Assembly (NCBI GenBank): GCA_027919835.1
Contig: JANVFP010000054.1
Location: 102,150-166,149 of the forward strand
Direction of reading: 5' to 3'
DNA from: Lentinula raphanica
Lineage: Eukaryota > Basidiomycota > Agaricomycetes > Agaricales > Omphalotaceae
Length of the DNA: 64,000 nt
Part shown: positions 1 through 22,951 of the stretch, piece by piece
Position numbering within the stretch: position 1 is the stretch's first letter
How the letters are laid out: each line of letters starts with the position of its first letter
Made by a program: the position numbers and the translations under genes
The notes under the pieces: model-generated
Told to the model about the DNA's origin: nothing
What the model saw: only the letters and a program-made list of their open reading frames with translations
Database searches by the model: none

Positions 1-313
1 AAGTTGATTGACGCTCGTAGTATTTACCCAATTTCCTTCCATAAATAGCACATAGTACGCGCTCTATATATAATGTTTCCCATTGATAATAGATGCCGTT
101 TTGCGGCTCGAATCTTTGGCCATTTCTCACCCATTGAAGGTCTTCTTTCGCCTCAATAATTGATTTTCTTTCGCATTATGCTAAGATATCCTTTTGCGTT
201 GATTATTGATTATCTTTCACCCCAGATCTAGCTAATCTATAGCGCCCGCATTTCTTTCGATTTTTCCGTCGCGAAAGTGATTGCCCGGTTTTTTTAGGCG
301 CTGGCCCATATAA
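1..313 (+). repeat. Left terminal inverted repeat of the CACTA-like element (truncated by window edge)
   Basis: This is the reverse complement of 22591-22903. The outer ~100 bp differ at only two positions, while the inner 200 bp are more diverged; a hand count gives about 89% identity overall. The inner part is AT-rich with T-runs and CTTTCGC-like words. Positions 314-544 hold no gene that I can support. Confidence 0.9.
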
Positions 314-544
314 GGCAGCTCTAGTGCCCGTCACAATCTCGCTCAAGAGTGCACCAACAGAAGATGCGTTCATGGAGGATATGTTCTTCGTGTTCGTGCT
401 AGAGGTCGCGGTCGAGTTTCAGTGTCCAAACGGTGGGATACCGATTAAGGATAAAAAAGCGGTGATGAGTTCTGGATACGGTATGGCCTGTCCACGTTCC
501 ATGATCTTGAACAAACTCCAACAACATTTATTTCAACGTTTCTA

Positions 545-2114
545 CTAGCTGGTATACATGCTCAAATCAATCTCCCTCACCTCGAAATCCTGTTCGCCAA
601 CATACTTCGCCTGCTTGAGTTCCGACATTTGTTTGAGGTAGTTTTCATCGAAGAAGGACCGAGGCCATTTTTTGGGCGGCTTCCTGGTAGAGGCTTTGCA
701 TCTAGGATCGCCTCGAATTCTACGCTTCTTGACCCTTCCGCTCTGTATGAAAAGGAACTTCTCGAAGCCCGGTAACATGTCCAACCAGTGAAGCACATTC
801 GCCAAGTATGGATCGCGGAAGGGAATGGTCATGGTGAGTTTCACGGCTTCCTCTATTATCACGCCTCGCCCATTCGTCACTGTATCAACACCATCCTCAT
901 CCTCAGACATCCCACCTGGTTTGAGTTTTCCAACCAGTCGCAGTAGGTATTGGAAAAGTTGTACCCCTTCATGATCCTCTCTTTCTTGGGATACTTGAAT
1001 CATGATAGCACAGATCTCGCTGCGAGTACGCCATTTCTGAGTGACAAATGGGTTTCAGACAGATCACTAAGATACGGAAGTAGCCTACCACATGACGGAA
1101 ATTGGTTTCTCCGTTCATCTTGATTTTCAGTTCATATTCAGACACCAGCCGTTCATGTATCTGCTGTGCGCTCTCCATTCGACCTTCGACTGTGCGGGGA
1201 ATAGACTTGATTGCCGCCAGGAAGATGCGATACAAGCGTTCGCTTAGAAGGGAAATCCAGTCTATTTTGCGTTTACCGAACCGATTGTCCTTGGCTTCAG
1301 ATACAATGGCCTGGGCTGTTTTTACTAAATTCATGAGCAATTGTTCATTCCAAGGCAATGTAGCTAGGCCTTGAGTGGTGGTTTCACGTTTGTCAATCCA
1401 CGTACAATGGATACCAGGCCCGTGTTGTAAGGGATCGTTTGAGAATTCCTCCAGTCGTTGGTCCGAAACACTGGGGCGAACGAACGCTTTGAAATTTCTG
1501 CGCACTCCGAGGGCTTCTCGAACGAGACGTCTTCCAAGTTTCTTAGAGATGAGATTGCCAATCAGAAAATATGTGGGTTTAGACCACAATGGACTTACAT
1601 TGATTTCACGTTTCTGCTGTATAGATTGCCAAGATTTGCGGACGCCTTTTCGCTTGTAACGAGCGGCAGTATGGCTGACGTTACTCTCCACGAAATCATC
1701 TTCTGACTCTGAAGACGACTCCGATGATTCAGAGTCAGAATCACTTGAAAATGCAGCATCCCGAGCCTTGCCCTTGCCCTTGCCCTTGCCCTTGCCTCTA
1801 GAACGCTATAAAGAGAGATCAGAGTCTACACCGACCCATGCTGGTATATAATATACTGACCGGACCTGTCTCGTCCTCGGTATCGGAACCAGAATCTAAA
1901 AACATCCTTCGCTTCACCTTGAAAAGCAGTCAGTAAGCAGGCTGAACCTGATGCTATGCCTCAATCCTACATAAGGCGAATGAATTCGTGCTGTTCCCCA
2001 TCCTTTATGTCTGGAATGGGAATGTCTTCCTGCTGAGCTAGTTCCCGCTGTTTCACCAGCATCCTGCTCGGGTCCAGACGACGTCCCTGCTCCAGAAGCC
2101 TGAGTCGTAGATTT
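545..2114 (-). CDS. C-terminal domain protein with GMSEDED motif (near left end; may be the 3' part of the coiled-coil gene)
   Basis: Five exons join in frame with GT..AG introns: 1971-2114, 1861-1917, 1599-1805, 1089-1541 and 545-1036. The first exons encode a Ser/Gly/His-rich linker, an acidic Ser/Asp/Glu run and a Gly-Lys repeat (1764-1795). The last two encode a globular domain with DWISLL, GGMSEDED and RKPPKKWPRSFFD. The same domain, with introns at matching places, occurs at 21490-22576. I recall similar GMSxDE-type conserved hypothetical proteins from mushroom genomes but know no function. There is no obvious start codon, so this is probably the tail of the coiled-coil gene at 2371-6707. 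A separate gene is also possible. Confidence 0.6.
1764..1795 (-). repeat. Hexanucleotide microsatellite (cttgcc)n coding for Gly-Lys
   Basis: About five units of cttgcc lie in a coding exon. On the minus strand they give GKGKGKGKGK between an Arg-rich start and an acidic Ser-rich segment. Repeat number is likely to vary between strains. Confidence 0.7.
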
Positions 2115-2370
2115 CTGTACAGGTTATAAGATCAGATTGAGATTGAAGCGTCAAAGGAACATAGTCCTAACCAAGGGCCCTCCCAACTTGTACGAAGGGA
2201 ACCGCTCTTTAGCGTATCGTAGCTCGGCATTTATATCAGCGCGAGATAATGCTCGATTTTTTCCTCTCATTGTGAAACCGAAAGCATTGCTCGCGGATTG
2301 CGCGCGGAGGTCTTCCTACATGACAGTAAGTCCCTTGACCCTGTTTGTACCGTTGCCCAGAGAAATGCAC

Positions 2371-5300
2371 CTTTAATTGATCGCGTTCTGCTTTCAGGTT
2401 GGAGATCTGTGCATGTAAGCTCGCGATCTCTGTTGCCTGGGCGCCCGCTCGTGTACTTGACTAGGACCGAAATGAAGCAGTTTCTTATAAACCAGGGAAG
2501 ATGACGCACTTTGAGAGTATCACGTTCGCTCGTCAAACTTGTGATAGATTGTTGTAATTCTTTGATTTTATTGTCATTCTGCGTGTTCATGGAGAGTTGT
2601 TGATCATATTGTTTTCGTAGCTGGTCGAAAGACTGTTGCAATTCCTTGATTCTCTGATCAGGAGACGACTTGGATCAAATCCAGTGAGGTCGAATGGGTA
2701 GTGAATGAACAGAAAAAACTACCTTGTATTGTATTCGTTCTTGTTTCAACTGCTTTAGTTCGTTGTTGAGAGAAGAGACAAGACTACGCTCGGCATCAAG
2801 AGAGGTCTGCATCATATATAGTGTTCAGCAATATGCCTTTGCAATAGTCTGAACGAACCTGTAGATTATTACGTTCTGTTCTCAGTGTTTCTATCTCAGC
2901 TCGGTTCGATCCAGAGGCCTTGAATCATTTTAAGGGCTTCGCTTGATCAAGAACGCAACACGATAGAGTTACCGTTTCTTTCAAAGCCTTGATTTCAGCT
3001 ATTCTGGCCGCAAGTTTCTCCTATGGCACGATTAAGCCCGTGATGTAGAGATAGTGACACCGGGGGCGAACCTTTATGAGTTTGTAGTCCGCATTCAGCC
3101 CATTGAATCGAATCTAATGAGAAACAGTCAGATTGGGAACATACAGGAACCAAAACACGCACTTTAGCCACTGTTTCCAAGTGCAATTTGCGTATCTGTT
3201 CTTTCTGATCCTCAATTGTTTTGCGCTGTATCTGACAATCCCTCGAAAGGGTTTTGACCCTCTCATTGAGCGTATCGGAGCTCCCAGCTGACGACTAGGA
3301 CAGCGATAAGACATGTACCGTTAAGAAAGAGAGCTTCTCACCTTGAATGCACGTAATTCCTCCAGCTCTTTCCTGTCCGATTCAACTTGTTTCTGGGATG
3401 TCTCGAGGTCGGCATATAGCATATCAAGATCAATCAACATTTTACTGACCTTTAAAGTTGTAGTGGTCGCCTCAAGCTCACGTTGGGTCTGTCCTTGAGC
3501 AGAAGCGGCTGACTGAAACTCTTCGATCTTACTGTTCATCGTGACCATAAGCGCCTTGGAAAGCATTAGACAACTCCGGTGATAAGAAATGTTGGGATAC
3601 TAACTTGATTTTCGTCGGTCAAACTTGTCCGCTCCTTCTCCAGATTCTCTTTGGCTTGTTTCAACGCTAGCACAGTCTGATCGAGATCTGTTTTCTGTTC
3701 TCGCAAGGTTTTCACGGTTTCCGTAAGTTTGCTCATTTCAGTTTGTAGCTGAGCAAGCTGGGACGATGTCTGTGCAAGGTTTGACTTTAAGAAGGATTTA
3801 TGAGTTGATCTAACGCATAGTGAGAACAGATGAGTACCTCTTTGTCCTTGCCCTTGGCTTCAGCAAGCTCCACGCTTTCACGGAGTTTCTGACACTGAGT
3901 TTCCAATTCAGCGATCCGAGATGCACGCTGCGCAAACTCCTATGAATCATAGTTTGAGAACCAGAGAGTGAGTGAGCATGAGAACGCAAGACGAACCGCA
4001 CTCTGAAGCCTGAGTGATTGTAGTTCGGCAGAGGTTGTCTTCTCAGCCTCAATTTGTAACTTGTCAATGGTCAGAGATCCGTGGAGAGGCCGAAGCGATT
4101 GAGAGAATACCTCGTTTGCATTCTCAAGATCCCTATTGGATTGTTCTAACCTCGCTAGTTCTTTCTCGAGGATAAGTACTTTGTCTTGCAAATCGGTTCC
4201 TTGAGTACCATCCCGCTCAAGACTCTGAAAGGGTGTTGTTAGAGCAACACAACAATTTCAAAATGATTGAACACATACCTCCTTCTCGTTCTCAAGATCC
4301 CTATTGCTTCGTTCCAAATCAGCTATAGTTTTCTCCAAGGACACAATCTTCTCTTTCACAACCTGTAGTTCACTAGTCATGGATGACTTAAACAAGGAAG
4401 CATGGGTGATCAGCGGAATCAAGATCAAAACACTCGCATACCTGCTTAGTCTGTGCTGAGTTTCTGGCGCGCTCCAGATCTACATGAAGCTCTTGCGCTT
4501 TTGTCTTTGCTTGTTTCAGATCTTCGCAAACCCTGGTCAACTCGTCTTCCTTAGTCTTTTGAACTCGGTCAGCTTCTTCCAGCTTCTTTTTGAACCCGGT
4601 CTTGGCTTCTTCCAGTTTGGCAATGGTGCTTTCGGACACTGTCTTGGCATTTTCTAACATGACTTTGTTTTGCTCAAGTATTTTGATCTTGTTCTCGGAG
4701 GATTTCAGATCGTTGCGAACCCTGGTCAACTCGTTCTCGGTATCGACGCGCGACTAACAAAGACGGTCAACAATGCCATATGCTGATACCATGATACTTA
4801 CATCATCCTTGGTCTTATAAATACGATTGGCTTCTTCTAGTTTGGCAATAGTGTTCTCGGATACTGCTTTGGTGTCTTTTGTAATGGCTACTTCAGCTTC
4901 GAGCGCTTTTATCTTGTGCGCCGCGCATTTCAAGTCCTCACGAGCCCTGGTCAACTCGTTCTCGGTATCGACGCGCGACTAACAGAGATGGTCAACGAGG
5001 CTGTATGAACAAGGCCGTATGCCGATACCATGATACTCACATCATCCTTGGTCTTGTAAGTACGGTTGGCTTCTTCTAGTTTGGCAATAGTGTTCTCAAA
5101 CACTGCTTTGGCGTCTTTTGAATTGGCTACTTCAACTTCAAGTGTTTTGATCTTGTCCTCCGCGCCTTTCAGCTCTTCACGAGTCCTGGTCAACTCGTTC
5201 TCAGATTCAGCGTGAGACTAACAAAAAAGGTCAAACGGTGCCGAGCTATGTCAAAACCGTGAATCTCACTTCTATGTTTCCTTCAAGTACTTTGATCTTG

Positions 5301-6707
5301 TTCTCCGCGCATTTCAGATTCTCACGAACCTTCGTCAATTCGTTTTCGGTTTTGGCATGCAGCTAACAACGACGGTCAACCGGTGCTGAAACGGTGCCGA
5401 GCTATGTCAAAACCGTGAATCTCACTTCTATGTTTCCTTCAAGTACTTTGATCTTGTTCTCCGCGCATTTCAGATTCTCACGAACCTTCGTCAATTCGTT
5501 TTCGGTTTTGGCATGCAGCTAACAACGACGGTCAACCGGTGCTGAGTTATGTTGAAACCTGAAGCCATGATACTCACGTCATCCTTGGTCTTGTAAACAC
5601 GGTTAGCTTCCTCCAGTTCTTCAACGGTTTTTGTCATCGCAGATATACTGGACTGAAGAAGGTCTTCAAATTGAGACTGACGAGAAGAACCGATCGCCGC
5701 GTACCTGATCTTTATCAGCGTTTGTCTTCAAACGTCTGATCGTGCCGCGAAGATCCATCTTCTCCTGGTGGTCTTCATCAAGCTGCTCCTGGATCAGAAG
5801 TCAGAGGCAGTTCAAGAAGATGCTGTATTTACCTCTGAATTCATTATATTCATCTCGAGATCTCTTTTGTCCTGCTCTAACTTGCCGATGGTGCCCTCAA
5901 GCTCTTGAATCTTCGTTAGATAATCCACCTCAGTGGTAGATTCGGCACTTTCTGCGTGCTGAATTGAGGTTTCATGTCAACTATTAGTAGCTAGATAAAA
6001 TTGTGAGCTCACGACGTTGACGGCTTTCGCTGTCTCCATCTCTCTTTCCAACTGAGCGATCCTTTCTTTTGATTTCGAGTTCAATTTTGACAAGCTCTCG
6101 ATGGTTTTGCCTTTTTCGAAGATATTCTCCTAGAGAGCATGGTTGAATGAAGAATTCCCGTGGGCGTGATGACAAGAAATACCCTCATTTCTGTCTTATC
6201 CGACTCGAGCTGTGATATCTGTCTCTGGAGTTCTTCGCTTTGATTCCGGACGACCGCTAGAGAGGTTTGCTGAGGAAAATGTGATTACAACATACGGAGA
6301 TATTAATTCAGCGACACGCCTACATGCTGAGCTATCTGGAATCTAAGCTTCTCAATTTCCTTCGAGGAAGCATCGGAAACCTCGACGAGGCGTACTTTCT
6401 GGAGCTAGGTTCAGTAACAATCCCTTGATATTCATCAAAATAGGACATTCACCTTCGCTGCGGTGTCTTTACCCTTGCTCGATTCCGTAGGATCCTCAGG
6501 AGCATTGGTTTCCAACGATCTTTTCTTCTTCCCCTGGGGACCAGAAATCTGGGGATCTGGTTCAGCACTGTTGCTCATGTCCATCATCACATCGTCCGCA
6601 ACGCCACTTCCGGTGGTAGAGGTCTGAGTGCTGAGAGGCATATCATTGCTATAAGACTCAGTGGCAATGTCGCTCATATCGGGAAGTTTGCTCCCAACAC
6701 CCAACAA
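2371..6707 (-). CDS. Large multi-exon coiled-coil protein (cargo of the transposon)
   Basis: The first exon (6453-6707) starts MLGVGSKLPDMSDIATES and is Ser/Thr/Asp-rich. A chain of about twenty short exons follows down to 2371. Most encode 30-60 residues of heptad-like sequence rich in Glu, Lys, Leu and Gln, such as IAKLEEANR, TRVREDLK and SLTSERDTLK. Most introns are 40-60 nt. No motor, SMC or SNARE head was seen, so this is a structural or adaptor-like rod of unknown role. Several exons are tandem duplicates of each other together with their introns (4741-5544). The reading probably continues through the Ser-rich linker at 1971-2114 into the domain at 545-1917. A second ATG at residue 11 is an equally good start. 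Exact exon borders were not all resolved. Confidence 0.6.
4741..5220 (-). repeat. Tandem exon-plus-intron duplications, ~239 bp unit
   Basis: The blocks near 4801 and 5040 share the same order of intron, TCATCCTTGGTCTT, TTCTAGTTTGGCAATAGTG and TGGTCAACTCGTTCTC, offset by 239 bp. Each unit carries one coiled-coil exon (IAKLEEANR) and one intron. A diverged relative starts near 5579 and another near 4560-4740. The coiled coil has grown by local duplication of whole exon-intron units. Confidence 0.8.
5233..5544 (-). repeat. Two essentially identical 156-bp tandem copies (exon + intron)
   Basis: Copies at 5233-5388 and 5389-5544 match base for base as far as I can read, including the intronic part with GCTAACAACGACGGTCAAC. 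Identity in an intron points to a very recent duplication or to gene conversion. Each copy adds one short coiled-coil exon. Confidence 0.85.
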
Positions 6708-7042: not shown

Positions 7043-8145
7043 ATGGGTTCCCGTAAAAACACTTCGCCGAAAAAACCTTCCCCCTCTACATCTCCTACTA
7101 GATTTTCCCGTCGTCGTCGAGTGGCAACAGAGCCTCATGCCATGAGTCTTCGTCAAAGAATTAGACCTATCTCTCCCATCCCTCATGATCAGAACACCTC
7201 GAGTGGAACGACGAACACAATTCACAGCAAGACCCCCGCTCCCATGATCTACCAGGATGCGAGTTTGGCTGGAGCGAGCTTCATGTCTGGACCTTTGACT
7301 CCCCAGCCTCCCACTCCCACTCCCATGATCGACCAGGATCAGATTACTATCTTCCAATTAGAAGTTCAACGTGTCGAAGCACGCAGCAGGGCCACGACTC
7401 CCGTCTTTTTCCAGGATGTGGATGTGACTGGAGGGACCGCCATGGCTCCCGAGCCTCCCATTCCAATGTCCGACCAGGATGCGGTAACCGGTCTTCAACT
7501 CGAAGTTGAACGATTCGAAGCTCGCTCAGACGCCGTGTCTACACCTTTGACGCCCGAGCCTCCCGTTCCAATGACCGACCAGGATGCGGTAATTGGTTTT
7601 CAACTTGAAGTTGAACGATTCAAGGCTCGTTCAGATGCCGTCATCGCTGAGCAGGAAAGAGCATTAGAGCTCATCAAGGAGAAAGAAGCCGTGCTACAAG
7701 AACAGTACAAGGTAAGTCTTTGTGCCCACTGAGGCGTTCAATGCTCACGCGTCAAGTTATAGTCCGTGCAAAAGAAACATGAGGAAGATCTGGCAGCGCG
7801 TAAGAAGATTCATGAATGTCCTCTTTGCTCGGATCTCGCCTGGGATAGTCATGTGTGAGCACTGTTTTGCACTTTGAATTAAGAATCCATCTCATCGCCG
7901 TTTTCAGTCTTGCATGTGGCCATTCTTTCTGTGTACGATGTCTCAACCGACACAGGTCCGAGCATGTACGAATGCGTCAGGAGTACCCTCAAACTTCAGA
8001 TGTCCTCATTCGTTGTCCAACTTGTGGTTCCAGTATCCTCACCAAGCCTATGCGCTCTGTTGTGTTACAGAATGGAGTAAACAATTTAGCAGCTGAATTG
8101 TTGGTGATGATTCCACCGACTGAACCTCTTCAATGGTCTTACTAG
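7043..8145 (+). CDS. RING-finger (C3HC4-like) protein, first paralogue
   Basis: Three exons (7043-7711, 7763-7854, 7908-8145) splice in frame to about 332 residues. The N-terminal third is basic and Ser/Pro-rich. The middle has a repeated unit of about 38 residues (PEPPIPMSDQDAV followed by LQLEVERFEARSDA) present two to three times, then a coiled coil. The C-terminus is a RING: CPLC, then CGHSFCVRCL, then CPTC, ending PLQWSY. RING proteins are usually E3 ubiquitin ligases; that role here is inferred. The RING region is clearly paralogous to the gene at 13372-14616 (CxxC-x-LAW and CGH-x-x-C in the same order). The two genes flank the transposase in opposite orientation. Confidence 0.82.
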
Positions 8146-8349
8146 TAGTGCTGGCTGTACATGTAAACCTCCAAGTACATCATCGTTGAACTTGTTTGTA
8201 CATTTCAATTTCATAATATTAATGTTTTCATTCGATCGTCGACGATCGATTCGAAGAGACTGGCTTACATTGAAATACCGAAAGCTGTTATACATAGACG
8301 CGGTCCTATCCTCGCTGCTTGGGCCACTATATTATAATCCACCCGCGCG
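8146..8349. other. Convergent intergenic region with an 18-bp perfect palindrome
   Basis: This stretch lies between the stop of the RING gene (plus) and the last small exon of the transposase (minus). It holds a perfect palindrome TCGATCGTCGACGATCGA at 8232-8249. It probably serves as 3' end for both genes. Confidence 0.5.
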
Positions 8350-11300
8350 CTATTCAATGATAGTCTGACAAGAAAACCAGCCATCAAGTTGTATATGGTG
8401 CATTGGTGTGCATATGGAACTTACTCACTTTTAGGTTCAAGCAAACCGTAATACCGAAAGGCTCTAATTCCCATCTTGCCGTGTGAGCTACCACCCAACC
8501 GTAATCGACGACTTCCAGATCGCCAGAGAATGCTGAAGCAACCATCTTTGCCTCGAATCCGCGGTCCCAGAATAATTTGAATGGATCAGGCTTGTCGCCA
8601 ATATTGATGATATGGGGTCCACTACGGCGTACAGTGAATCTGGTTTCATCATCTTGTTTGAAGATATGCTGAATTTGACCAGCCTCCCATTCAGTCTGCG
8701 CATCGCCGTTAGGATGAAAGCAGATGTATGAGTTTCCTGCACCTGTTGCCTCCGGGGTACTATAGTAGTTTCCGTGCGGCGTCAAGACCTTGGTGTAGCA
8801 CTGAACATTCTTTGAATAATCGAAACCCAGAAAACGAATCAATCCACGAGGAGTGGAGGTTTTGAAATGAGAGTTTTCGTCGCTCTTCATGGATGTAGAA
8901 TCTGAAATGATTGCCTCTACGGCCTCCTGATTGAGTTCATCAGAAGACGATGACAATGGCTGCATGCTTTCAGTGCTGGGTCATGAGCGAGCGAGACCAT
9001 ATGCTTTCTCAATCAGCTGAAAGCAATATTTGAGCAACGGCGGACAATCATCTTGTAAGGTTAAACGTCGAAAACTGGCTCCTTTACAGAACGAGTGAAG
9101 CAAGGTGCTCTCGAATTCACCTGACATATCGTTAGATGTAGATCAATACGATGTGCTAGAGCGAACATACCGTGTTTATGATTGACTGGGATTCCCCTGA
9201 GCCGTAATATGAGTCGTTCGCCTGGAAAACACCAGAAATTTCGGACAGTACTGAATAGGTCCATTGAGTCGTAGATATGGAACGCGAGGTGATGGCTTGG
9301 TTGAATGAAACCGGGAAAATTTACTTTCAATCCATCTATATGATGACGGAGATATTCACGGAAATCCGTTCGATCCTGTTTGGATAGTTTATGCTTGGCC
9401 ATCTTGATTGCAGCGCATGTGAGATATAGCGTAGTTTCAAGAACCGAACGCATATCATTCGCATCGGTCGCGGCGTTGGGTGAATCCTCTTGCCAAAGAC
9501 TCAATAGGGCAAGCGGGAGAAAGATGGAGAATAGGTTACGCCAGTTATCCGCCTTGGGTGTGCCCCCTTTAGGCAATCCGATGAATTTGGATGGTTTTTC
9601 GACATAACTTGGAGTGACAATCTCAGAGATGGCCTGCTGTACGCGTTTGAGGACGACGGGAGAATCAACTGGTGTCCAAAAAATGGCTTCGGTAGGTTGA
9701 GTCATTCTCTGCCAGTTGTTTAGATTATCATGAACAGCAGTGTTCCAATAAAGAGAGTACTCACCCAGTCCACCAATAAAGAGATCAGATCCGACTTCTG
9801 AGCAACCTTGGTCGAGATATCCCTCGGGATACGATTAAGATCAGCACAAACATAAAGCAGGGCATCTCGGGTTTTGGTCTTCAGGCGCTTTGCTAATCTC
9901 TCCTTTCCTACGTCATCAGTTTCGACCGGTTCCCAGAGATACTGGTGGATATGTCCTATATGGACCGCAGTGGTGTACTTCATTGATGTCGCCAAGTCTT
10001 GCATAAAGGCTTGCCTCTCTGTGCTGCTGAGGGCATGGCATGGCAATCCAGCAAAATATGTGATAGGGTCCGTTGACCCGGAAGTTTTTGCAGGTGGACA
10101 ATGAGTCGATGTAAAGGAAGGCCAGACAAACGGACTTTCTTCCTGAATGCCGGTTAATCACTGTGTCATAACCGTCTCAGTGGTGCATCATGGATATCAA
10201 ACTCAACATACCCAGTTCAGAAGAGCATCTACCATATCATCTTTCGTGACGTCTCGCTTCCTGATCATTTGCAACCTCTGGAGCTTCTCGGAGGAATGAG
10301 GGGGAAAAACAACAAGATCATCACAGACGTATAGGAGGACACTCCAGATGATCGTTTTGAGCTTATTGCAGAAGCGATCTTGAGCAGATCCCGTAGCAGG
10401 CCGCCGATCCGAAAGCAAGTTGTGCACATCAGCAATTTGACCCAAGTGGCGAGGATTAGTGACAATCTCTTCCTTCAATCTCGACATCCTTTGCTGTCTT
10501 AGAGCTTGCAAATCTTCTGGAAGGTGGTCCCACTCCAGTATAGCCGTAGTGTGTTCAACATCGGTATCTGGTTCCCCAACAGAATCGGATCCTATAAGCT
10601 GAAGGGGCGGAGGCGGAGTAAACTGGTGATGATGAGCGAATGAGGAAGATGGAGTCGTGGCTTTGCTTTTAGGATCATCCTTGCTCTCTGGATTGTTGAG
10701 ACGAAGTCCGTCTCGGAAGTAGTTCTTTTCCAGAAGCAGATACATTGTATGCATGGGGTCAACGGTCAAGTGTAACGATGGTCAATAGTATGGGAGCCGC
10801 CAAAAGTCTGAGTAACGCGTGCCGTATAATTCTTCTGGAACTATTCTGTCATCCATGCAATGTGCATTTCGCCACATCTCTGCACCTTTCTTGAGGTATT
10901 CGTCATCAACTGACTGCCAATCCTCGAAATTGGTAGCATTGAGATAGGCCCGGTGCCAAGTTTTACATCCAAAACAAAAACAATGAGATCCAACGTCCAG
11001 CAGGCCGGTATACGGTCGGATAGCTTTGAAATCCATGGAAAGGATTGCCAATACGACTCTATGTATGCACTGGTAAGGCGATTCTTCGCCGTCCACATGC
11101 GCACATTGAAGTCCTCGTTCATAAGCTATCAGAAGCTCGTCTACAAGGGGTCGAATAAAATGACAATGCTCTGCTTCTTTAGAATCTGGTTCGGAAGGAC
11201 CCTGGATGATGCCCGCAAGATAGACGTACGCTGAGTCCTCCCGCATTTCTGGTGGAAGATTTAGACACGACATGGATATTACACCAGTAGAAAGGTGTTT

Positions 11301-13035
11301 GCCGCCGATTTTGTTGCCTTCGATGTTGAAAAAATCGGAGTGTAGTTTGAAAAACCACCGGCCTTCACTTCCTCGCTCCTGTACAAACAGTTTCCCGTCA
11401 GGACCCCTCAGTTCATAATAAAATCGCCCATCAGCTGTGTTTTCCTTGTCCATCGGAGGGCCGTCCGAAGTTATCTGCTCGCAGAAAGTCTCACTGTATT
11501 TTCCTATGCCTGGGAGAGCCAGAAAACGCCCGAACCAGTCCAAGAAAGAGTAGAACTCAAAAGTCTTGATGGGTTGACTGGCTGACAGCAGATCTTCATT
11601 GCAAGGTTCAGCGTTGGTTGTTGAACGGAATGTGCATTTTGAAGGATAGCATGGTATCGATGACAAAGGGAGAAGAAGGGGTTTGTAGGTGCAATTACAA
11701 CGCGGGCAGACGGCAAATACAGTGGTTTCGGTGTCAAGATTAAACTTCTTCTCGAGTCCTCGGATGTCTTCTGATATAGATGAGAGTGCTACTTGTTGCT
11801 GATAATTCGGTCCACCTGGCTGAAGATATACGAGGCTGTATCCAAACAGCCTAACAGTTTTCAGAAGGAAATTGGAGCCTCTACGGCCCAAACCCTCCAT
11901 TACACGCCCCACCAAGGCCGTTGAATACGCAATGAGAGTGGGGGTAAGATGGGAAGATGTAGGGTTGGATGCGAAAGCACCTATGACTGTGTTGAGAGGG
12001 GCTTCTCAAATTCTCAACGACGGGCCACTCACCATTGTCAAGCTTCATTGGGCTGTTATCAGGATGCGACGCCCGCCAGGTCTTCAGCAAATCTTCAACG
12101 TTCCTTACAACTAGTTTAGCTTCATCGACTTCTGTTTGCACTTCCTTCCTATAGCGTTTGGCAAGGTGAGCACCGATAGTGGCGATTGCCTGCTCTGTAT
12201 CAAGAAGAGTTTTCTGAATATCGGATGGATGAGATGTTGGGGAGAGGTTCTGTAGCGAAGCCAGAAATTTTTGAGCACTCTGGGAGAGAGAGTTTAAGCG
12301 CTGAGATGCCTGGGTTATGGTGCGATTCTGGCGGCCATCGAAAATGGTTGAGAGACCATGATCGTCCATGAAGTTCGCGCCTTGTTGCTATGCTCGAAAT
12401 CGTTATGAAGTGTGTACCTTACATTGTAAGCTCGAACTCACCAGTAATGCATCTTCCGCTAAGATTGTTAATTGGTCTAAGTCTGCGAGAGTGATAGTGC
12501 CAGCAGGCTGGCTGAAATCAATTTCCCGGTTCAAAATCGTGCTCGCCATTACAGTGAGACCATGATCTATGTTTCCCGCACTAAGGCTTAGAGGGTTCGA
12601 GGAAGATCCAGCAGCCACGGGGAATTGATTTGCATCTGTTTGTTGAGAGTATGGCGGATATTGAGGTAATGGTCGTTGTTCAGATGATGATGGAGTATGA
12701 TCCATGGCGTTTTGGGAGAGCACAGGCAGCGTAGTAACACCCGAAGGAGATACACAAGGCTGGTGACTAGGATGCACAGAAGTCGGTGAGTCATCCGGAA
12801 TGCCCGAAATTTGTGAAGGAGGTGGCACAGACAGTGCATCTGTTTGTTGAGAGGATGATGAGGACGGAAGGTGTTGAGTAGATGAGTCTTGAGAAGACAA
12901 TGGACGGTGAAAGGATGAGGAAGGAAACGATCCAACGAAATTTGAGGGAGTATAAGACTGTAAATTCCGAATCTTTCGCCCGCCCCGAACGTCGCATTCA
13001 AAGATGTCTTCAAAACCCTTCCTCTTTTTGCTCAT
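8350..13035 (-). pseudogene. Plavaka/Tnp2-type CACTA transposase with two in-frame TGA codons
   Basis: Seven exons keep phase: 12442-13035, 12033-12387, 10212-11878, 9765-10142, 9171-9708, 8429-9120 and 8350-8364, about 1400 codons. The N-terminus is Ser/Pro/Gln-rich. A zinc-binding-like segment (CPRCNC..CTFRS..CNEDLL) follows. Then come blocks typical of the family: CLNLPPEMR, YLAGIIQGPSEPD, FIRPLVDELL, HCFCFGCKTWHR, LTVDPMHTMYLLL, GLPKGGTPKADNWR, FWCFPGERLILRLRG, LLHSFC and a C-terminal VAHTARWEL. TGA interrupts at 10782-10784, between LPYY and PSLHLTVDPMH, and at 8981-8983. Both are one C-to-T change from CGA. The start chosen (13035) gives MSKKRKGFED; an upstream ATG exists at 13161. The enzyme would cut and rejoin element ends, but this copy is probably dead unless the stops are read through. 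Confidence 0.88.
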
Positions 13036-13307
13036 CGTCAAAAGAGCATGGCGAAGAGAATGAATTTGGGTCGAAGAGAACAAGTCAACGTTCAACTTGT
13101 AGGCCTTGGCCGAGTATGTGGATGATGATCGGGAAAGCCGGATGCTCTTCACGTGAGACAATCAGAATTTGAGACCTGATATTTTGATATTCGCAACCTT
13201 GTAAAGCTTACATCCCAAGTGCTTGATGGTTATTCGCAGTCGGACCAACAGATAGAGAGAGAGTTCATTACGATAGAAGGACTACATTACATTCTAGTTA
13301 CATCTTA

Positions 13308-13410
13308 CTGCCTGGGCATTTAATGGGTAGTCGTGTATGGCCGTTCGAGAGGATGATGGCTGCCCAGGTATTTAATTGGTAGTTGTGTATGGCCATTCAA
13401 GAGGATGATG
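13308..13410 (-). repeat. 52-bp tandem duplication covering the C-terminal codons of the second RING gene
   Basis: 13308-13359 and 13360-13410 are imperfect copies. The second holds the real last codons and the stop; the first lies in the 3' flank. Three differences in the aligned core are CpG in the flank copy and TpG or CpA in the coding copy. Confidence 0.7.
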
Positions 13411-14616
13411 AGGACGGGGTGGATCCCCATGGATTAGGGCAAGTCTTTGAACAGCAGCGCTAACGGCGATAGACGGGACCGGTTGGCGACAGACAGGGAA
13501 CCCGCATGCGGGGCAGCTACAAAAGTGACGCGTTTCGATGTACTGGCGTCGGGCGTTGGTGATGCACTGCGAGCAGACCGTGTGTCCACAGGTTAGACTA
13601 CACAAAGTCAACAAACTTGGACAACGACATTAAGGCGGCCAACACATACATATGCGGATTCCATGCAAGCTCATGGCAAGAGAGACAAGTGTGCTCGAGC
13701 TTGTCCATGAATTGCTTCAAGCGTAAGATTTCTTCATTATCCTGAGAGACGGAAAGGTTGAGACCACGGATCAAATGACGTTGGCAATATCGACACTTAC
13801 CTCACATAGTTGCTTCAGGGTCTCGATGTATTCTTCAATGAACTTGATAGTCGCTTGTTGTTCGTCATAAAGACGCTGAGACTTGGAAGATTTTCTTTCC
13901 ATCCTCTCAATGAGTGGATCGTTCGCAGGAATTCCCTTGGGAACAAGGGGTTTCGGGGGAAGAATCAGAGCAGACAAAACAGAATTAGGGGTAGACGCGT
14001 CAGTGCTCGGAATAGATGCGTCCGCTGTTGGGATAGACGCGTCCGCTGTGGGTATAGACGCGTCCACTGTGGGTATAGACGCGTTCACTATGGGAATAGA
14101 CGTGCCGGGGGCGGAGAAAGATGCGTCAGGAGTAGATTTTGAAAGAGTGGGGGTCGACATAGATGCACCATCACTGAAGACAGCGTTCGAAGTGGTAGGG
14201 GTGCTGGTGGTAGTAACATCGAAAGTACAACCCCTCCCCTTTGTGTTGGTTGGAGTGGGGTCAAGAGTGCTTGCGGTAGAGTCGGACGCAAGAGACATAC
14301 TAGTGGTAGCAACGTCGAAACTACGACCCTTCCCCTTTGTGTTGGTTGGGTTGGGGTCAAGAGTGTTTGTGGTAAAGTCAGACGCAAGAGGCTCATGGAG
14401 AAGGTCGCGATCGATGCTGTTGCTGAAGATAGGACCTTGCTCCTTGGTAGTGGGGGCAGGATCAGATGCGCCGGCGGCGGAATCGAAGGCGAGAGTGGCA
14501 CCAAGGTCCTGAGGCTCTTTCATACTACGCATACGCAAACACATGGAAACATGATGAGGGGATTCCTGGAGCTGGTTCCGACGATGGGAAGTTCTAGATG
14601 AGCGTTCGGGTGCCAT
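13372..14616 (-). CDS. RING-finger (C3HC4-like) protein, second paralogue
   Basis: Three exons (13801-14616, 13650-13741, 13372-13597) join in frame to about 377 residues. Residues 1-50 are basic. A long Thr/Ser/Asp-rich region follows, with repeated blocks (TNTKGKG, then about five DASIPTA-like octamers). Then come a short coiled coil and a RING: CLSC, CGHTVCSQC, CPAC, ending PLEWPYTTTN. Order and spacing match the gene at 7043-8145 (LAWNPHILTCGH against LAWDSHVLACGH), so the two are duplicates within one element. The E3 ligase role is inferred from the fold only. The disordered regions differ completely between the paralogues. Confidence 0.8.
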
Positions 14617-15585
14617 GGAAAAAAAAGTCAGAAGGGGGAGAGCTAGAAGGTTGTGGTTGAGGGGAAAGAATGCTGATGCTGAGAGAGTTCTCTTTATAAG
14701 CGTTGGATCTCAGAGGAGACAAAGGCTTGAAAGAAATATGCGATCAGCACGAGGTGAACCACGATCACATGCATTGGGTACTTACGCATCGACATCAACT
14801 CTATGCAGAGGCTATATTGAGCTACTCGCAAACAGAAAACACCCCGTCCTTGAATGTCGACAATTCGATGATTCGACGGGGATGGCTGGTTGTATCACTT
14901 CGGAGAGTCATCAAGCTTCTGAAATATCAACGTGAGGACATACCTGCGACGTGAAAATTCAGTGTACTAAAAGACTCTCAGCCAATCTCGCAGGAACGAC
15001 AGTCCACGGACGGCCAGGAAATTTCGAACGGCAGGTTTGAAGCTTCTGTAAGCCGTGTTCGTAAGGAGCAGCTCGGCCGCAGAGAAACAGCCAATAGAGC
15101 CTTGCCTAGTTGAGGGGCTGGGCGTCCGTTGGCTGTAAAGTCTCTGGGTTTAAGGATGCATCAAAATCGTGGTTTTAGAGCGTGAACGATGAAGGCAATT
15201 GGGATTTGGAAAGACCCAGAGCGTAGCCGTTGACGGATGTCGATGAACGTTGAACGTTGAACGTTGAACACCAATGACACCATTTCTGTCACATGATCAG
15301 TGTCACGAGGTAGCTTATGTAAACCGTTTCACTGTGAACCGCTTCAGTGCTGTTACTTTATACTCGTACTAGCACTTCAGCGAGACGATTAATATCCAAG
15401 GTCATATCTCCATCATCATCACTGCTATGATTTCTACTTGCGCATAGACCGTGTCACCCTTGTACTTCGACCCTGTTTGCTTGCGGTTGGACCGTCCAAA
15501 TCGTGACCAGTGTGGTTTGACCCTCGGCCTCCTCCATAAATTCCAACTCTCGCCGCTTGTTCTTTCCTCTCCAACCCACTTCCTC
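14617..15585. promoter_or_regulatory. Divergent intergenic region between second RING gene and coiled-coil/Trp-rich gene
   Basis: Nearly 1 kb without a supported gene lies between ATGs pointing apart, so both promoters should be here. A short tandem GTTGAAC array (three perfect units, one imperfect) lies at 15249-15269. TTTATACTCGTACTAG at 15357-15372 is a TATA-like stretch for the plus gene. Confidence 0.4.
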
Positions 15586-17157: not shown

Positions 17158-17609
17158 GTGGGCTATCGTCTAGGTTTGCATGCTACGAAGCAGGGGTACG
17201 CGAAGCTTGAATAGAATAAGATATCGTGTGCAGAATCACGCTCTCAGAAATCTCGATGCCTCTACCTATACAGTATCATATACTACACCTACAAAATGTC
17301 CTTACACTGTCCAGAATGTCCTCGCATAAATTGTTCAGTATGTAATTCGAACGATTATCAATTAACCTCAGAGATAAGATCAGATAAAGGCCGGTTCCGG
17401 TCCCGAGATTGAGCCTAAGGCTAGCGCTCAACTAGCGCTAGTATAGTATTTCTTATTTCACATTCACCACAAGGAATCACCAACACTGAGTATCGATTCT
17501 AGCTCGCATATACGTATCGCAAGATCTACGGTCCATGATACATTGTAAGCTACAAGGTAGTGTGTGTCTTTTCGCGGGGCCTGCTAGTATTTATCCTGAA
17601 CATCTCTGG
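17158..17609. other. Convergent intergenic region
   Basis: No gene or strong repeat was recognised. Short inverted words such as CTAGCGCTCAACTAGCGCTAG occur near 17420-17440. It probably holds the 3' ends of the flanking genes. Confidence 0.3.
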
Positions 17610-17984
17610 TCAAGAATATGCCAACACCATGAACATAGTTATCGCCCCAACAATAGCGCTCACAATGACCACGATCCCAGAAAGAAAACGGGACCGATTT
17701 TGGGTATGAGGAGATGCTCGGCCAACCGGTGTGACAGTGGTAGGAGCTGGGAAGATGTTTCCATCCTGAACGATCGTCGACCCACATCCGAATGCCAAAA
17801 CAACGGTGTAGCGAGGTTGCTCGCCACCGGGGGTAGTCGTCACTGGGCCACTTCCAGTAGAATCAACGACGGCAATTAAGGGGATGTGGCGCATGGAAGC
17901 AACAGCAGGATAACCAATGTTTTCAACGCCAGTACGAAGTACGTCCACCCGGACAAAGACAACGGTGATGATGAAGGAAGCCAT
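17610..17984 (-). CDS. Small single-pass membrane protein, unknown function
   Basis: A single open frame of 124 codons starts MASFIITVVFVRVDVLR and ends with a hydrophobic stretch (SGIVVIVSAIVGAITMFM) that should be a C-terminal transmembrane helix, preceded by basic HTQNRSR. The N-terminal 70 residues are polar to hydrophobic with a Gly/Pro/Thr segment. A tail-anchored topology is suggested. No family was recognised. It lies between two other cargo genes and its frame is open without introns, but chance cannot be excluded for so short an ORF. Confidence 0.5.
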   Translation of the reverse strand: MASFIITVVFVRVDVLRTGVENIGYPAVASMRHIPLIAVVDSTGSGPVTTTPGGEQPRYTVVLAFGCGSTIVQDGNIFPAPTTVTPVGRASPHTQNRSRFLSGIVVIVSAIVGAITMFMVLAYS

Positions 17985-18433
17985 AGCGTGTGTGGTAGTG
18001 AAACTTCTGGGGTGAGTGACTCTTTACTTATGAGGTGGAACGTCAGAAATTGACTTTCTTATAACCAGCCAAAAGCTAGACAATGCACCGGATGGTGATA
18101 AAGGCTGTTGATCGATACCAATAAATCTTCAGGTCAAAGAGATATTTCAATATTACAACGTGTTACGCGTACATATATATCCCTTTGTGAGGTAAGTCCC
18201 ATTGAGATCCACATTGAGGACCGTTAACATTGTTCTTCAGTGATTTGGCACAAAGAAATCTCCCTATTAATATTAATATGCGCCGTTCGTCCTTTCCCTC
18301 ACCATTTGATATCCACAACCATCGAGCCGAGCTCGTCCATCCCCTCATTCACCATTGAGAGTCGATCTCCTCCTCGTCCTTTTCTTCTTTCTTCAGCTCG
18401 CACTGTCCTTCCTTTTCCTTCAGCAAGTTCCAT
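17985..18433. other. Divergent intergenic region
   Basis: This stretch lies between the small membrane gene (minus) and the GYNL gene (plus). It contains a degenerate third copy of the CGAGCCGAGCTCGTCC repeat near 18320 and a TATA-like TACATATATATC at about 18170. A frame from the ATG at 18278 stops after 26 codons, so it was not used as the gene start. Confidence 0.3.
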
Positions 18434-19175
18434 ATGTCGTCGTTCTCTTCACCACTCGAGCCGAGCTCGTCCTTTCTTTCACCAGAAGTTCCATCTGCGA
18501 ATTTGCAAATATCGTCACTCTCTTCACCACTCGAGCCGAGCTCGTCCTTCCCTTCAACAGAAGTTCCATCTACGCCGTATTCATGCACGGTCTCGACTAT
18601 CCATTCTCGAACATCTGGATCTGCTTCTTACCGAACATCGCCGTATAACTCAACCAATTCAACCAGAGTTTGTTCCAACCTATTCACAAGCAGAAACGAG
18701 CAAGCGTCTTTCGATTGCTCTCAACGCGTCATTCCAAAACCCCCAGGCGAGGTCGGAAGGCCTGGTCGTGGAGGTTATAATCTGCAGAAAGTATTGGGTT
18801 GGTCTAAAGAAGATTATGTTGAAGTGAAGGTATGCGTTGTGGCAGAATTGATCGTGGATACAAGCTCACCTCGTCGCTTTCAGAATTTCATCAAGACCCT
18901 TGTTCGGCACCTCGACTGCAACGTGCCGTTTACTGAGCAACCCTTGCACGATATTTATCGTATCAGAAGCGAAGTGTGTGCTATTTCACAACCTGGTTTT
19001 GCAGTGTCACTCACTCCTCTGTAATCAGGCGGTCACTAAATTCAAGTTTTTGACTCCATACAATAATCACTGGGTCGTCGATGACTTTATGCGCAGTCGT
19101 TTGATGTATGAAAAGAGATTGATGAGAAACCGTTTGAAGCGGGTGCAGGAGGCTTATGAACAGTCGCATTACTAG
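18434..19175 (+). CDS. GYNL-type conserved hypothetical protein
   Basis: Three exons (18434-18829, 18884-18973, 19029-19175) keep phase to give 210 residues. The N-terminal ~60 residues are Ser/Pro-rich with a duplicated block (LSSPLEPSSSF twice, from a 77-bp DNA repeat). The rest is globular: GRGGYNLQKVLGWSK, RHLDCNVPFTEQ, and a basic helical C-terminus (RSRLMYEKRLMRNRLKRVQ). I recall short proteins of this layout (GGYNL, a later LD..xPF..Q and a charged tail) as common unnamed repeats in Agaricomycetes. No biochemical function is known to me. It is a cargo gene. Confidence 0.68.
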
Positions 19176-19447
19176 TAGCGTGTTTCCCAACGATCCGCAT
19201 CCGCATCCTATATCTAGTAGTATCATAATCGCAAACTATCTATGTTATGCATCGTCAAGATTATACATATATAATACAACACTACCGAATTTCGCAACGT
19301 CCACTTGATGCGTCAGGGCGCGTCGCGTACTAAGTACTATAATATCATCGATAGCGACATAATCTCCACGTGTAGATTCTTTGTTCTCTGCCACTGGTTT
19401 CTCTATCTCTTACCTAAACTATCAAGGACTCTTCCAATTCTATCACT
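19176..19447. promoter_or_regulatory. Intergenic region upstream of the WD40-like gene
   Basis: Two AT-rich stretches (ATACATATATAATACAAC at about 19264) could act as a TATA region for the gene starting at 19448. Nothing else was seen. Confidence 0.3.
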
Positions 19448-21104
19448 ATGTCGAACCCCCAAACTATGCTCCAGACTATGTCGGACCTCCGTTACAAGCG
19501 GTACGCAACCTTTGAAGGTCTTCAGAACGCTATTGCTTCCATTGCAATATCGGCGGATGGTAAATACTTAGGTGCAGCAGGTGAGTGGCCATTGTGTTCG
19601 TTATCTATGCAGATTCTGAAAGCCAAATTTTGTAGGCCTTTTTGGCGCTGCTGTGTGGAACTTGACAACCTCTGAGCCTCTCAACATGCCTACACTGCGT
19701 GCGGTGGAACGTCTTTGTTCTACCTCGGCTTGGCTCTATTTTGACAATGAGCGTGGCACCACCTCTCGTTATGTTCTCATTCTTGGCTCTTTGAACGGAC
19801 AAGTAAGTGCCCTAGACGTGAATGAAGAGGAAATGGTGTGTAGATTCGAGAATAACGAGATCCATTTTCGACTCAACTCATTACCGAATAGGAGCTTCAA
19901 GCTGCTCGTCTTCCCGCTTCCCGAAGCACCGTACAACAAGTCGTTTCGCTCGACGTTCAACAACCTGAAGTCGGAAACAAGTCTCGTGCGAGAGTAGTAG
20001 CGAGTTTTGCTGACTTCATTGTCAAGTCTTGGACATTGGGCCTCAACGGCGACTTTCAGCTCGTGTTCTCTATCAATCTCGAACCCGGCTTCCTTCCGAA
20101 GACTGTTTGCTTTCACAAAGGAAGTCAACATGTACTGATTTTTTCAAAGGAGGGTGGGATTCGGTCAGTGCTTGTGGCATTGTTTGTATAATCTCTACTC
20201 ACAAGTTGTCACTTCAGTGTCCTATTAGACCGTAGTAGTGGAAAAATCATCACGCGCATTGCGAACGGGTGTGAGATTATGTGCGTTGTTAGCATCCTAT
20301 CCCTTTCCTTTCTCACATCAGTCTCAGGGCGTCGGTATCTGTGGATCAACCTACTAGTCGTTTTGTCGCCAGTACCGGTTACGGATTTCAGTTATTCAAC
20401 ATGAGCAACCTTCGTTATATTCGCACATTCGCGCACGACACGGCTCTACAGAACGACATACCCTGTCAAGTCACTTTTGCTGAAAACGGGTCCAAGGTCG
20501 TGGGAGGCACTGGTCAAGGCGAAGCCCTGCTCTTCGATAGCCAAAATGGGCTGTTAGAACAGAGGCTGAAATGCCCAAGGGATGAACTAATCCAGACTGT
20601 GACAGTAAGAGCTTTGTGCTGCCCGCTGTTTTTGGTTAACTTTGACATGATTCAAAATGTCAGACTTGCACGCTTGAGGACAAGTATTACATCGCTGTTG
20701 CTGGCTCCGCATCTGGAAGACCTTCTGATGTTATAGTCTGGTGCAAATTGCGAACACAGTCCCCAGACCACAAGAAGAAAGCAGACCCCATTCTCTTCGC
20801 CGTTCATCAATCGACTGCTATGTTTATCCTGTACGTTCTTGTCGCTATCAGTTTGCTCTTCTTCGCACTCTTTCTGGGACCTGGCTTGAAGGTTCGTACA
20901 CCTCTCAGTCCTGTGTTATCTGAGGTTCTAAAAATCACCAAGATTTCGCCTTCTGTTGCCTACTACTTGAGGTTCAATGTCAGGACATGCTTCATGACCA
21001 AAATAGCCCGTTGCCTAGAGGTGGGGTTTGCCATTGATCTTCTCTTCGATGATCAGATTGCTGAACTACAGATAGATTTTGACATCGTTGGCACGTATCC
21101 TTGA
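19448..21104 (+). CDS. WD40-like repeat protein with C-terminal transmembrane segment
   Basis: Six exons (19448-19580, 19636-19835, 19892-20163, 20218-20280, 20322-20604, 20664-21104) stay in frame for 463 residues. Beta-propeller-like repeats are visible: IASIAISADGKYLGAAG with AVWNL; VLILGSLNGQVSALD; VLIFSKEGGIRVLLDR; FAENGSKVVGGTGQGEALLFD; YIAVAGSASGRPSDVIVW. A hydrophobic helix follows (FILYVLVAISLLFFALFLG). The last ~70 residues are of unclear fold, and an extra intron may exist there. A scaffold anchored to a membrane is inferred. It is the last plus-strand gene of the element. Confidence 0.72.
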
Positions 21105-21489
21105 GAAGAAGGCATTGAACAGTTTGGGGCTACAATATGTGAATCGGCGAGAATGAGATAATATGTCAAACGGTAGCTGTGTATAGAATGTACTGTACTG
21201 CAGACGCAGCGCCCTTATACACCTTCATGCTCACTCTTATACATGGACTACAGTCATATTTGTGCAAATTAGCGAACAAAATATATTGAATAATTGATTC
21301 TAGGTCTACTGCTACTGGGGTGCACATACTGTAGATTGAACGCACAGCGGCAACTGCATTGGGCAAGGATCACAACCAAAAATGACATTTAAAAGCCAAG
21401 ATTAACAGTACGTTCTACAGCAAATTCTCATTCTCTCTGTACATGTTGAACCACGAATGGGAGGAACCTGAGAATAACAAGTTTTCGGC
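21105..21489. other. Convergent intergenic region
   Basis: This stretch lies between the stop of the WD40-like gene and the stop of the minus-strand domain gene. No gene, repeat or structural element was recognised. Confidence 0.3.
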
Positions 21490-22576
21490 TCATAGGTCAG
21501 CAAATATCATTCTATAATATATGGTCACCCACCTCGATGGTCCCGGGAAAGTGGTCTCACCGTCACCATCGTCATGCACGCGATTGTTGCTGATGAAAGA
21601 AGGTGGGAGTTTGGATGGAGCCGAACGCGTTACCACATGTTGAGTATCGACTCGTTTTAGACGTCTGGGTCCACTTTGAGGGAAGCATTCGGGGTACATG
21701 TATGGTGTGTTGTCCACGTACTCGAACAGAGGCCGAAAATCTGGGTGGCGAAAATGAAGGATGAAAACATATTTCAGAGGTTCAGTGCTATCCTCGTCAA
21801 TGGCAGTTTCTTCATCGGACATTCCAAGATATGTGAGGTGATCCAACACCTGTAAGACATAGCTCCAGAAATGTAAACCATCATTATCACCGAATGCTTT
21901 GCACATAGCAATCATCTTGGCAGCGATACGTTGTCTCCGATTGAACTTCTGGGAGAGAGTGAGCATCTTGGAGGGCTAGATTATGTCCTGACACACCGTT
22001 ACAAGCATGGCCCGATGAGCTTTCTTGTTTTTGATATCAGTAGTATAGAAGACTCCCTTTGTTTTGAGGTTGCGTGCATCACTGATAATTCGATCAATTC
22101 TAGATGCAAAGAGAGAGCTCCAATCTACGGTGGTGACACTGAGTGGGCTCGCATCGTTGAAAGTGATAGAGCGAGCCTCTGTAGTCAATAGCTCGACCAC
22201 TGCCTGATTCCATTCAGAATCGTTGGTTGTGGCAGCTGTATCCAATTGCAACGCCTGGAGCTTGGGACCGTAGAGTCTCCGATCCTGTCTGAACAAGGAT
22301 TTATCGGTTTCGGAAACAGAGTCTTTGAGACAAGCCTCATATGTGTACTGTATATTGAATGCACGATGCATTATTTCGCGCGCAATTGACTATGAGGATG
22401 TGTGTCAGATACGTAGAAGGAGAGGCCTGTCTCAGGGCTACACACATTGATGTCTGCGTCGGTGATTTGAGAAAGATTATAGCGTGCTTCAGGCATGGGA
22501 GGAAATTCGATAGCGCATCCGATCCAGAGCGAAGGAAAACCGCCTTAGTAGTAGAAGTTGAATGTTGAACGATCAA
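21490..22576 (-). CDS. GMSDEE-domain protein (near right end), paralogue of 545-2114
   Basis: Three exons (22442-22576, 22003-22389, 21490-21948) join in frame to 326 residues. Landmarks match the left-end copy in order: WN-x-x-V..L (SEWNQAVVELL), DWSSLF against DWISLL, an intron at the equivalent place, then KFNRRQRIAAKMIA against KWRTRSEICAIMIQ, LGMSDEE against GGMSEDED, and a basic, Pro-containing end (SKLPPSFISNNR). It lacks the coiled-coil part, and its start lies only 15 bp inside the right terminal repeat. Function is unknown. Both copies point the same way, so this is not simply part of the inverted repeat. Confidence 0.68.
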
Positions 22577-22590
22577 GCGCTCAGGGTGCT

Positions 22591-22951
22591 TACATAGGGC
22601 CGGCGCCTAAAAAAACCGGGCAATCACTTTCGCGATGGAAAAATCGAAAAAAACGCGGGCGCTATTGATTAGATAGATTCAAGGCGAAAGATAATCTGTG
22701 ATCAATGCGAAAGGTTCCATGAAGATAATGGGAAAGAAAATCAGTTTTTGAGGTGAAAGAAGAACTTTGATGGGTGAAAAATGGCCCAATATTCAAGCCG
22801 CAAAACGGCATCTATTATCAATGGGAAAGATTATATATAGAGCGCGTACTATGTGCTATTTATGGGAGGAAATTGGGTAAATACTACGAGCGTCAATCAA
22901 CTTTTTGATTCCAACTTTCCCGACCTGTAAAATTATGCTGCGCCCCTAGTG
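22591..22951 (-). repeat. Right terminal inverted repeat with CACTA tip
   Basis: 22591-22903 is the reverse complement of 1-313. 22904-22951 should be the counterpart of the missing left tip. Read inward from 22951 the sequence is CACTAGGGGCGCAGCATAAT. The bases just outside are ACATATATG; the 2-3 bp next to the tip (AC or ACA) are the expected target-site duplication. Confidence 0.87.

Follow-up and report, generated by a model that had tools for sequence, protein, structure and literature searches.

Large CACTA-ended elements sharing a recurrent multi-gene set in the genome of Lentinula raphanica

Introduction

In CACTA transposition, a Tnp2 transposase cuts at the ends of the element and pastes the unit elsewhere, and short subterminal repeats are typical of CACTA/EnSpm elements; plant En/Spm encodes an accessory protein, TnpA, beside its Tnp2 transposase, TnpD. 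One or two proteins suffice for ordinary DNA transposons, Maverick/Polinton elements hold a conserved multi-gene set in variable order, and Starships carry variable cargo. In the present study, element A, located at the start of a 64,000-nucleotide stretch of the Lentinula raphanica genome (hereafter the window, C54:102150-166149), was analyzed together with its relatives in the same genome (49.06 Mb, 75 contigs). Element A very probably belongs to a lineage within CACTA/EnSpm that carries a conserved multi-gene core, and the find, made in an earlier reading of the window from its letters (the sequence-only reading), is real and larger than first described.

For fungal CACTA/EnSpm elements, the accessible part of Kojima 2025 (PMC12730594) gives CAC..GTG ends, 3-bp target duplications and, in some families, the extra gene TET/JBP. 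The same part of that work describes C(2)C and H(3-4)H between the second D and the last E in both EnSpm and Plavaka transposases, and, for Plavaka elements, TGT..ACA ends with 2-bp duplications or CATCA..TGATG ends with 2-3-bp duplications. The Plavaka domain is PF18759 in the available portion of PMC8290104, enlarged EnSpm elements of 16-20 kb with 4-5 open reading frames (ORFs) are mentioned for the red alga Chondrus crispus in an excerpt of a review (PMC6431247), and Starships are reported in the basidiomycete Tremella fuciformis in the accessible text of PMC13066641. A literature search that covered subscription journals thinly, and is thus weak evidence of absence, found no multi-gene CACTA element in mushrooms and, with the same coverage, nothing on transposable elements of L. 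raphanica.

Results

Ends and target duplications of element A and its relatives

Element A occupies C54:102102-125100 (22,999 bp; window positions -47 to 22951), and the first 48 bases of its left end (C54:102102-102149) lie beyond the window start. Both tips are CACTAGGGGCGCAGCATAATTTTACAGG (CACTA), the right one at 22951 on the minus strand, and ACA stands on both flanks as a 3-bp target duplication. The sequence-only reading had proposed a CACTA-ended mobile unit of about 23 kb in a basidiomycete, bounded by long matching inverted ends, and had predicted a tip and a target duplication to the left of the window; the tips, the inverted ends and the ACA duplication bear this out. Inside the window, positions 1-307 pair with 22597-22903 at 88%. 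The ends are as follows:

1..314, plus strand: left terminal inverted repeat of element A, extending 48 bases leftward beyond the window; tip CACTAGGGGCGCAGC, ACA flank
22589..22951, minus strand: right terminal inverted repeat of element A, 363 bp, with 89.5% identity to its left counterpart; tip CACTAGGGGCGCAGC, then ACA

Four large elements of 22-65 kb were read to both ends, all four with exact 3-bp duplications (A, ACA; C7, AGA; C22, AGG; C11, CTA) and with CACTA tips in A, B and C11 and CACTG in C22. Element B (C7:840905-905629, 64,725 bp) is largely collinear with A, with about 69-92% nucleotide identity across the longer matched stretches and one piece inverted, and is enlarged by nested repeats. 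The C11 element (C11:592269-614754, 22,486 bp) has inverted ends of 545 bp (99.1% identical), is flanked by CTA on both sides and lies in an apparent intron of a multi-copy gene. Two stretches, C39:435460-435749 and C8:1075665-1075954, run across the site at 84% identity to both C11 flanks, with no element and with two 3-base gaps at the junction; since they are mutually identical, they may count as one observation. Matches on C28, C14, C51 and C8:1549715 (72-75%) also span the C11 junction in the flank search. The C22 element (C22:826276-863714, 37,439 bp, AGG on both sides) has many internal repeats and is bounded by the tip CACTGCGGCCCGACC, at which two further blocks, on C57 (111782 to the contig end) and C53 (160385 to the contig end), start at the same base. 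In the two parts compared, with the middle ~8 kb outside the comparison, these blocks are 99.4% and 99.8% identical; their left flanks are unrelated, and both contigs end within the block, so that the assembly probably broke at recent copies. Seven short elements (763-1129 bp) have related tips, six of them with exact 3-bp duplications, and the tip pattern with up to 2 mismatches gave 30 genome matches versus 0 for the reversed control.

Some side observations concern the same elements. A transfer RNA-like gene is predicted on the minus strand at C54:101982-102072 (L009:4833-4923), and 29 bp separate it from the left tip of element A, which therefore sits just upstream of it; this is one case only. 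In element B, a satellite with ~99-bp spacing fills much of ~8 kb (positions 36072-44140), and outside it a 587-bp repeat, perhaps the long terminal repeat of nested retroelements, occurs in five copies. A 7.8-kb stretch at C4:1039740-1047540, bounded by the related tip CACTAGGGGCGCGGCACAATTT, perhaps represents another, smaller family.

Recurrence and order of the gene set

The search with the transposase core gave at least 44 genome matches, and after two second pieces (C25, C27) were dropped, 42 loci remained: 25 close loci scoring at least 180 bits, among them A and B, and 17 distant loci with lower scores; all genome match counts are lower bounds. Five families were scored within a radius of 40 kb with GMS1 (a GMSxDE protein), WR (Trp-rich), GYNL, RING1 and WD2 (of the WD40-like gene) as queries. 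At least three of the five were found at 24 of the 25 close loci versus 2 of the 17 distant ones, and both of the latter (C14:102950 and C28:601598) lie no more than 40 kb from close loci. GMS was present at 24, WR at 23, GYNL at 23 and WD at 21 of the close loci. The sole close locus lacking the set, C27:741713, has gene X 6.8 kb away. Counted from the side of the families, 50 of 55 GMS, 27 of 28 WD, 26 of 32 GYNL, 33 of 42 RING (counted at E up to 1) and 35 of 54 WR matches lay within 40 kb of any transposase, where uniform scatter would place at most 7.2%; some of these matches are exons of one gene and hence are not independent events. Gene X (126 aa in C11) had 15 matches, every one no farther than 40 kb from a transposase or from another of the recurrent families, its neighbors being WR only at C68 and the transposase only at C27.

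The main transposase exons of A, C11 and C22 are 46-52% identical, and in all three elements the transposase, two GMS genes, RING, WR, GYNL and WD lie inside the ends, in three different orders: GMS1-, coiled coil-, RING1+, transposase-, RING2-, WR+, GYNL+, WD+, GMS2- in A; RING+, GMS-, coiled coil (weak), GMS+, X-, WR+, transposase+, GYNL-, WD+ in C11; and GMS-, RING-, WR-, X+, WD-, GYNL+, transposase-, GMS- in C22 (ORF pieces matched by tblastn at E of at most 1e-3; the C22 RING was found from the C11 query, E = 1.6e-10, and not from A). The core is one Tnp2 transposase, two GMS proteins, WR, GYNL and a WD40 membrane protein, often with RING and/or X. A mobile unit with such a gene set between CACTA-type ends, proposed in the sequence-only reading for positions 1-22951, is seen again in two more elements of the same genome, C11 and C22.

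WR and X were also observed side by side at C68:7574-10086 and C1:197663-200164, with no transposase match within 35 kb; these pairs are possible further or decayed members.

Genes of element A

The genes of element A are listed below; dN/dS denotes the ratio of nonsynonymous to synonymous substitution rates.

545..1805, minus strand: GMS1 core (GMSxDE protein), two main exons; dN/dS 0.24 versus copy B
2300..6700, minus strand: long coiled-coil gene; internal repeats, near copies of which start 145-239 bp apart
7043..8145, plus strand: RING1, N part repetitive, C3HC4 RING at the C end (PF15227, 31.0 bits, cut-off 30)
8384..13161, minus strand: Tnp2-type transposase gene, several exons, residues D-D-C(2)C-H(4)H-E; dN/dS 0.08-0.10 in core exons
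13370..14709, minus strand: RING2 (PF00097, 21.5 bits, cut-off 21), limits approximate; counterpart in copy B limited to the last 35 codons
15586..17157, plus strand: WR (Trp-rich), N part coiled coil, conserved C domain of ~180 aa
17610..18023, minus strand: small membrane ORF, probably not a gene, with no relative found in B, C11 or C22
18359..19172, plus strand: GYNL gene with the motif PGRGGYNLQKVLGW, missing in copy B; limits approximate
19620..21104, plus strand: WD40-like protein with a hydrophobic stretch at the C-terminus, also in the C11 counterpart
21490..22389, minus strand: GMS2, relative of GMS1; dN/dS 0.35 versus copy B

Nine non-transposase genes had been proposed. Relatives in other elements were found for both GMSxDE genes, RING1, WR, GYNL and the WD40-like membrane gene, which supports the greater part of this count; the small membrane ORF, the one of the nine left unsupported, had no match in B, C11 or C22 and may not be a gene. 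RING1 and RING2 each passed at least one Pfam RING cut-off; the second RING protein is further supported by its 35-codon tail matched in B, but the rest of it has no B counterpart. The long coiled coil is present, as had been read, and repetitive: two of its pieces match copy B well, one has a weak match in C11 (E = 5.7e-4), and C22 gave no match to either piece.

In the Pfam scan of the A and C11 proteins, only RING models reached curated cut-offs; no Pfam family was matched by GMS, the WR domain, GYNL or X, and the WD protein of C11 matched the CDC20/Fizzy WD40 model weakly (E = 7.1e-5, far under the cut-off of the model). Among the matches listed, full-length relatives of WR were found in L. 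raphanica (48%) and L. edodes (39%), and a protein search with GMS1 gave one partial match. The structure model of WR (mean predicted local distance difference test score 45.6, predicted template modeling score 0.28) was too poor for fold comparison. An antisense ORF (19769-20143, minus strand) across the WD40 gene, with a P-loop-like GASGSGKTS, was considered and rejected as likely due to chance: the bounds of its dN/dS of 0.47 (0.22-1.08) span 1 and it has two stops in B, and the sense WD40 frame is therefore preferred.

Selection on the shared genes

For the alignable pieces of A and copy B, dN/dS was 0.24 for GMS1, 0.35 for GMS2, 0.38 for RING1, 0.28 for WR (135 codons), 0.42, 0.30 and 0.48 for the WD exons and 0.08-0.34 for the transposase pieces, with all upper bootstrap bounds below 1. 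In B, one stop each was found in the GMS1, WD3 and TP1 pieces. The compared pieces of A and the decayed copy B show purifying selection, which is no proof of present function.

Transposase and class assignment

At least 59 relatives of the transposase were found outside the L. raphanica genome assembly at E up to 1e-3; among the matches listed, the best were from Lentinula, followed by Gymnopus, Rhodocollybia, Dendrothele, Hymenopellis, Schizophyllum and others. P0024 (C8R42DRAFT_563696, L. raphanica) shares, by eye, unusual stretches with the C22 transposase. In P0028, a protein model of L. lateritia, RING is fused to the transposase, which hints, as far as a single model allows, at the same gene neighborhood in that species.

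The residues D155 and D256 of the main transposase exon are near-invariant (all 31 rows with letters there have the first D and 30 of 31 the second, in an alignment of 33 rows that includes 30 of the 59 listed relatives from outside the genome). A CxxC follows the second D of the A transposase, with HHLAFH and then FPGE further on, and H(3-4)H..FPxE was found in 25 of 62 aligned rows, including A and C11 and excluding the C22 row, while many others are partial. The catalytic E was tentatively placed at FPxE after RAG1 and DUF4218, a reading of our own. The acidic residue of R.S(E/D).W was tried as the third catalytic residue and rejected; since it varies (D in A, A in C11), FPxE is the better candidate.

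The sequence-only reading had named the transposase Plavaka/Tnp2. The Tnp2 part stands, given the match to Transposase_21 and the residue order D-D-C(2)C-H(4)H-E, but the Plavaka part was set aside as the weaker fit: Plavaka-type ends (TGT..ACA or CATCA..TGATG) were not present in the elements read, the 3-bp duplication does not fit, and PF18759 was not among the Pfam matches of the A transposase pieces or of P0004. On the basis of ends, duplications and transposase, the elements are classed as CACTA/EnSpm; to judge from these features, Plavaka appears to fit less well. No exact subterminal 9-mer occurred above the shuffle frequency in the outer 450 bp of the four elements, a search confined to exact repeats.

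Discussion

The extra genes of element A appear to form its working core rather than to be passengers acquired once, since the same families occur at 24 of 25 related transposase loci. The Tnp2 transposase would bind the long inverted ends, cut there and paste the whole unit. GMS, WR, GYNL and X may serve as transposition cofactors resembling plant TnpA, and the RING and WD40 proteins may steer host ubiquitin-dependent turnover, leading to escape from silencing or to restraint of the transposase. GMS is the best candidate for an end-binding cofactor because two GMS genes are present in each of A, C11 and C22 and GMS occurs at 24 of 25 loci. Taken as a whole, the explanation by a multi-gene CACTA lineage with these assigned roles is likely. 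It is doubtful that the paired GMS, WR, GYNL and X form an element-encoded complex that is needed for transposition or controls it, with RING and the WD40 membrane protein acting as the element's own ubiquitin pathway to defeat host silencing; if true, the lineage would combine cut-and-paste transposition with a gene set as complex and as constant as that of a virus.

The following points weigh against this explanation. The roles of GMS, WR, GYNL and X as cofactors and of RING and WD40 in ubiquitin steering are inferred only and are held tentatively, our judgment leaning slightly against them. The gene models were built from genomic sequence, with no transcripts. The ends are known for 4 of the 25 close loci, and the flank search of the L. 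raphanica genome found neither an unoccupied copy of the element A flanks nor an empty site for B or C22. RING was detected at just 13 of the 25 close loci, WR stands alone in 19 single-family clusters, and gene X has no match in A or B. Copy B lacks GYNL, the C part of WR and most of RING2, and its GMS1 is interrupted by a ~2.2-kb insert in addition to the one stop. The dN/dS values come from one pair, A versus B, for pieces of GMS1, GMS2, RING1, WR, WD and the transposase, exclude GYNL, RING2 and the coiled coil, and average the whole divergence since the common ancestor. As to the class, the match of the A transposase to Transposase_21 (tnp2, PF02992; E = 7.5e-6, 25.7 bits) is under the curated cut-off of 28.6, the distant relative P0056 carries PF18759, and EnSpm and Plavaka are related groups.

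The sequence-only reading had regarded the non-transposase genes as mobile cargo. A CACTA element that took up a host gene cluster benefiting the fungus, with passengers as in Starships, would be consistent with the many genes per element, their varying order and the purifying selection in the pieces compared. However, passenger sets are expected to vary among elements, whereas here the same families recur at 24 of 25 loci of one transposase clade and, with WR as the exception (35 of 54), are rare elsewhere (50 of 55 GMS and 27 of 28 WD matches near a transposase); among the A and C11 proteins scanned, moreover, only RING models reached curated Pfam cut-offs. Host cargo is accordingly regarded as improbable. 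Still somewhat less probable is an integrated virus-like or self-transmissible agent that uses the Tnp2 transposase as its integrase and the extra proteins for packaging or cell-to-cell transfer: the constant set of about eight genes in shuffled order and the presence of a membrane WD40 protein and a long coiled coil, which have no known role in transposition, would suit such an agent, but the A and C11 proteins scanned (other ORFs being outside the scan) gave no Pfam match to a polymerase, helicase, protease or capsid protein. The least credible alternative, that independent repeats, with one transposon per gene family, were inserted in the same gene-poor islands, draws on the five 587-bp repeat copies and large satellite of B, the internal repeats of C22 and the solitary WR genes, but in the case of A, B, C11 and C22 it is already contradicted by the matched ends and exact 3-bp duplications that enclose the whole set in A, C11 and C22, the collinearity of A and B at different places, the near-identical C57 and C53 blocks that start exactly at the CAC tip after different left flanks, the uninterrupted target of C11 and the absence of the set near distant transposases of the same superfamily.

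The multi-gene CACTA lineage thus remains the preferred explanation. About seven extra families have been kept despite reshuffled order and transposase divergence to about half identity, which implies that their proteins matter to the element. The lineage offers an entry point to how large elements in mushrooms survive silencing, may give several uncharacterized mushroom protein families a context and suggests that some Lentinula genes annotated as hypothetical are transposon equipment.

Comparison with known systems

The size and constancy of the gene set separate this lineage from the CACTA elements found in print. Compared with the fungal CACTA/EnSpm elements in the accessible part of PMC12730594, the ends, the 3-bp duplications and the order of transposase residues are the same, while about seven extra families instead of one, sizes of 22-65 kb and the lack of a TET/JBP match among the proteins scanned are different. 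Plavaka, as far as the available text describes it, shares a related transposase and occurrence in mushrooms and differs in ends and duplications. The Chondrus crispus EnSpm elements, compared by the excerpted description only, are likewise multi-ORF CACTA elements with fewer ORFs.

Plant En/Spm also has an accessory protein beside Tnp2, though just one, and the exact subterminal repeats were not found here. Maverick/Polinton elements are, like these, transposons with a conserved multi-gene set in varying order; among the A and C11 proteins scanned (other ORFs being outside the scan), no Pfam match to a protein-primed polymerase, integrase or capsid was found, and the same scan gave none to a tyrosine recombinase captain. 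Starships, as described in the portion of the source available, are large fungal elements with many genes as well, whereas the elements described here combine a Tnp2 transposase with a constant set in place of a tyrosine recombinase captain; they would be a basidiomycete counterpart of giant fungal elements, built on another transposase.

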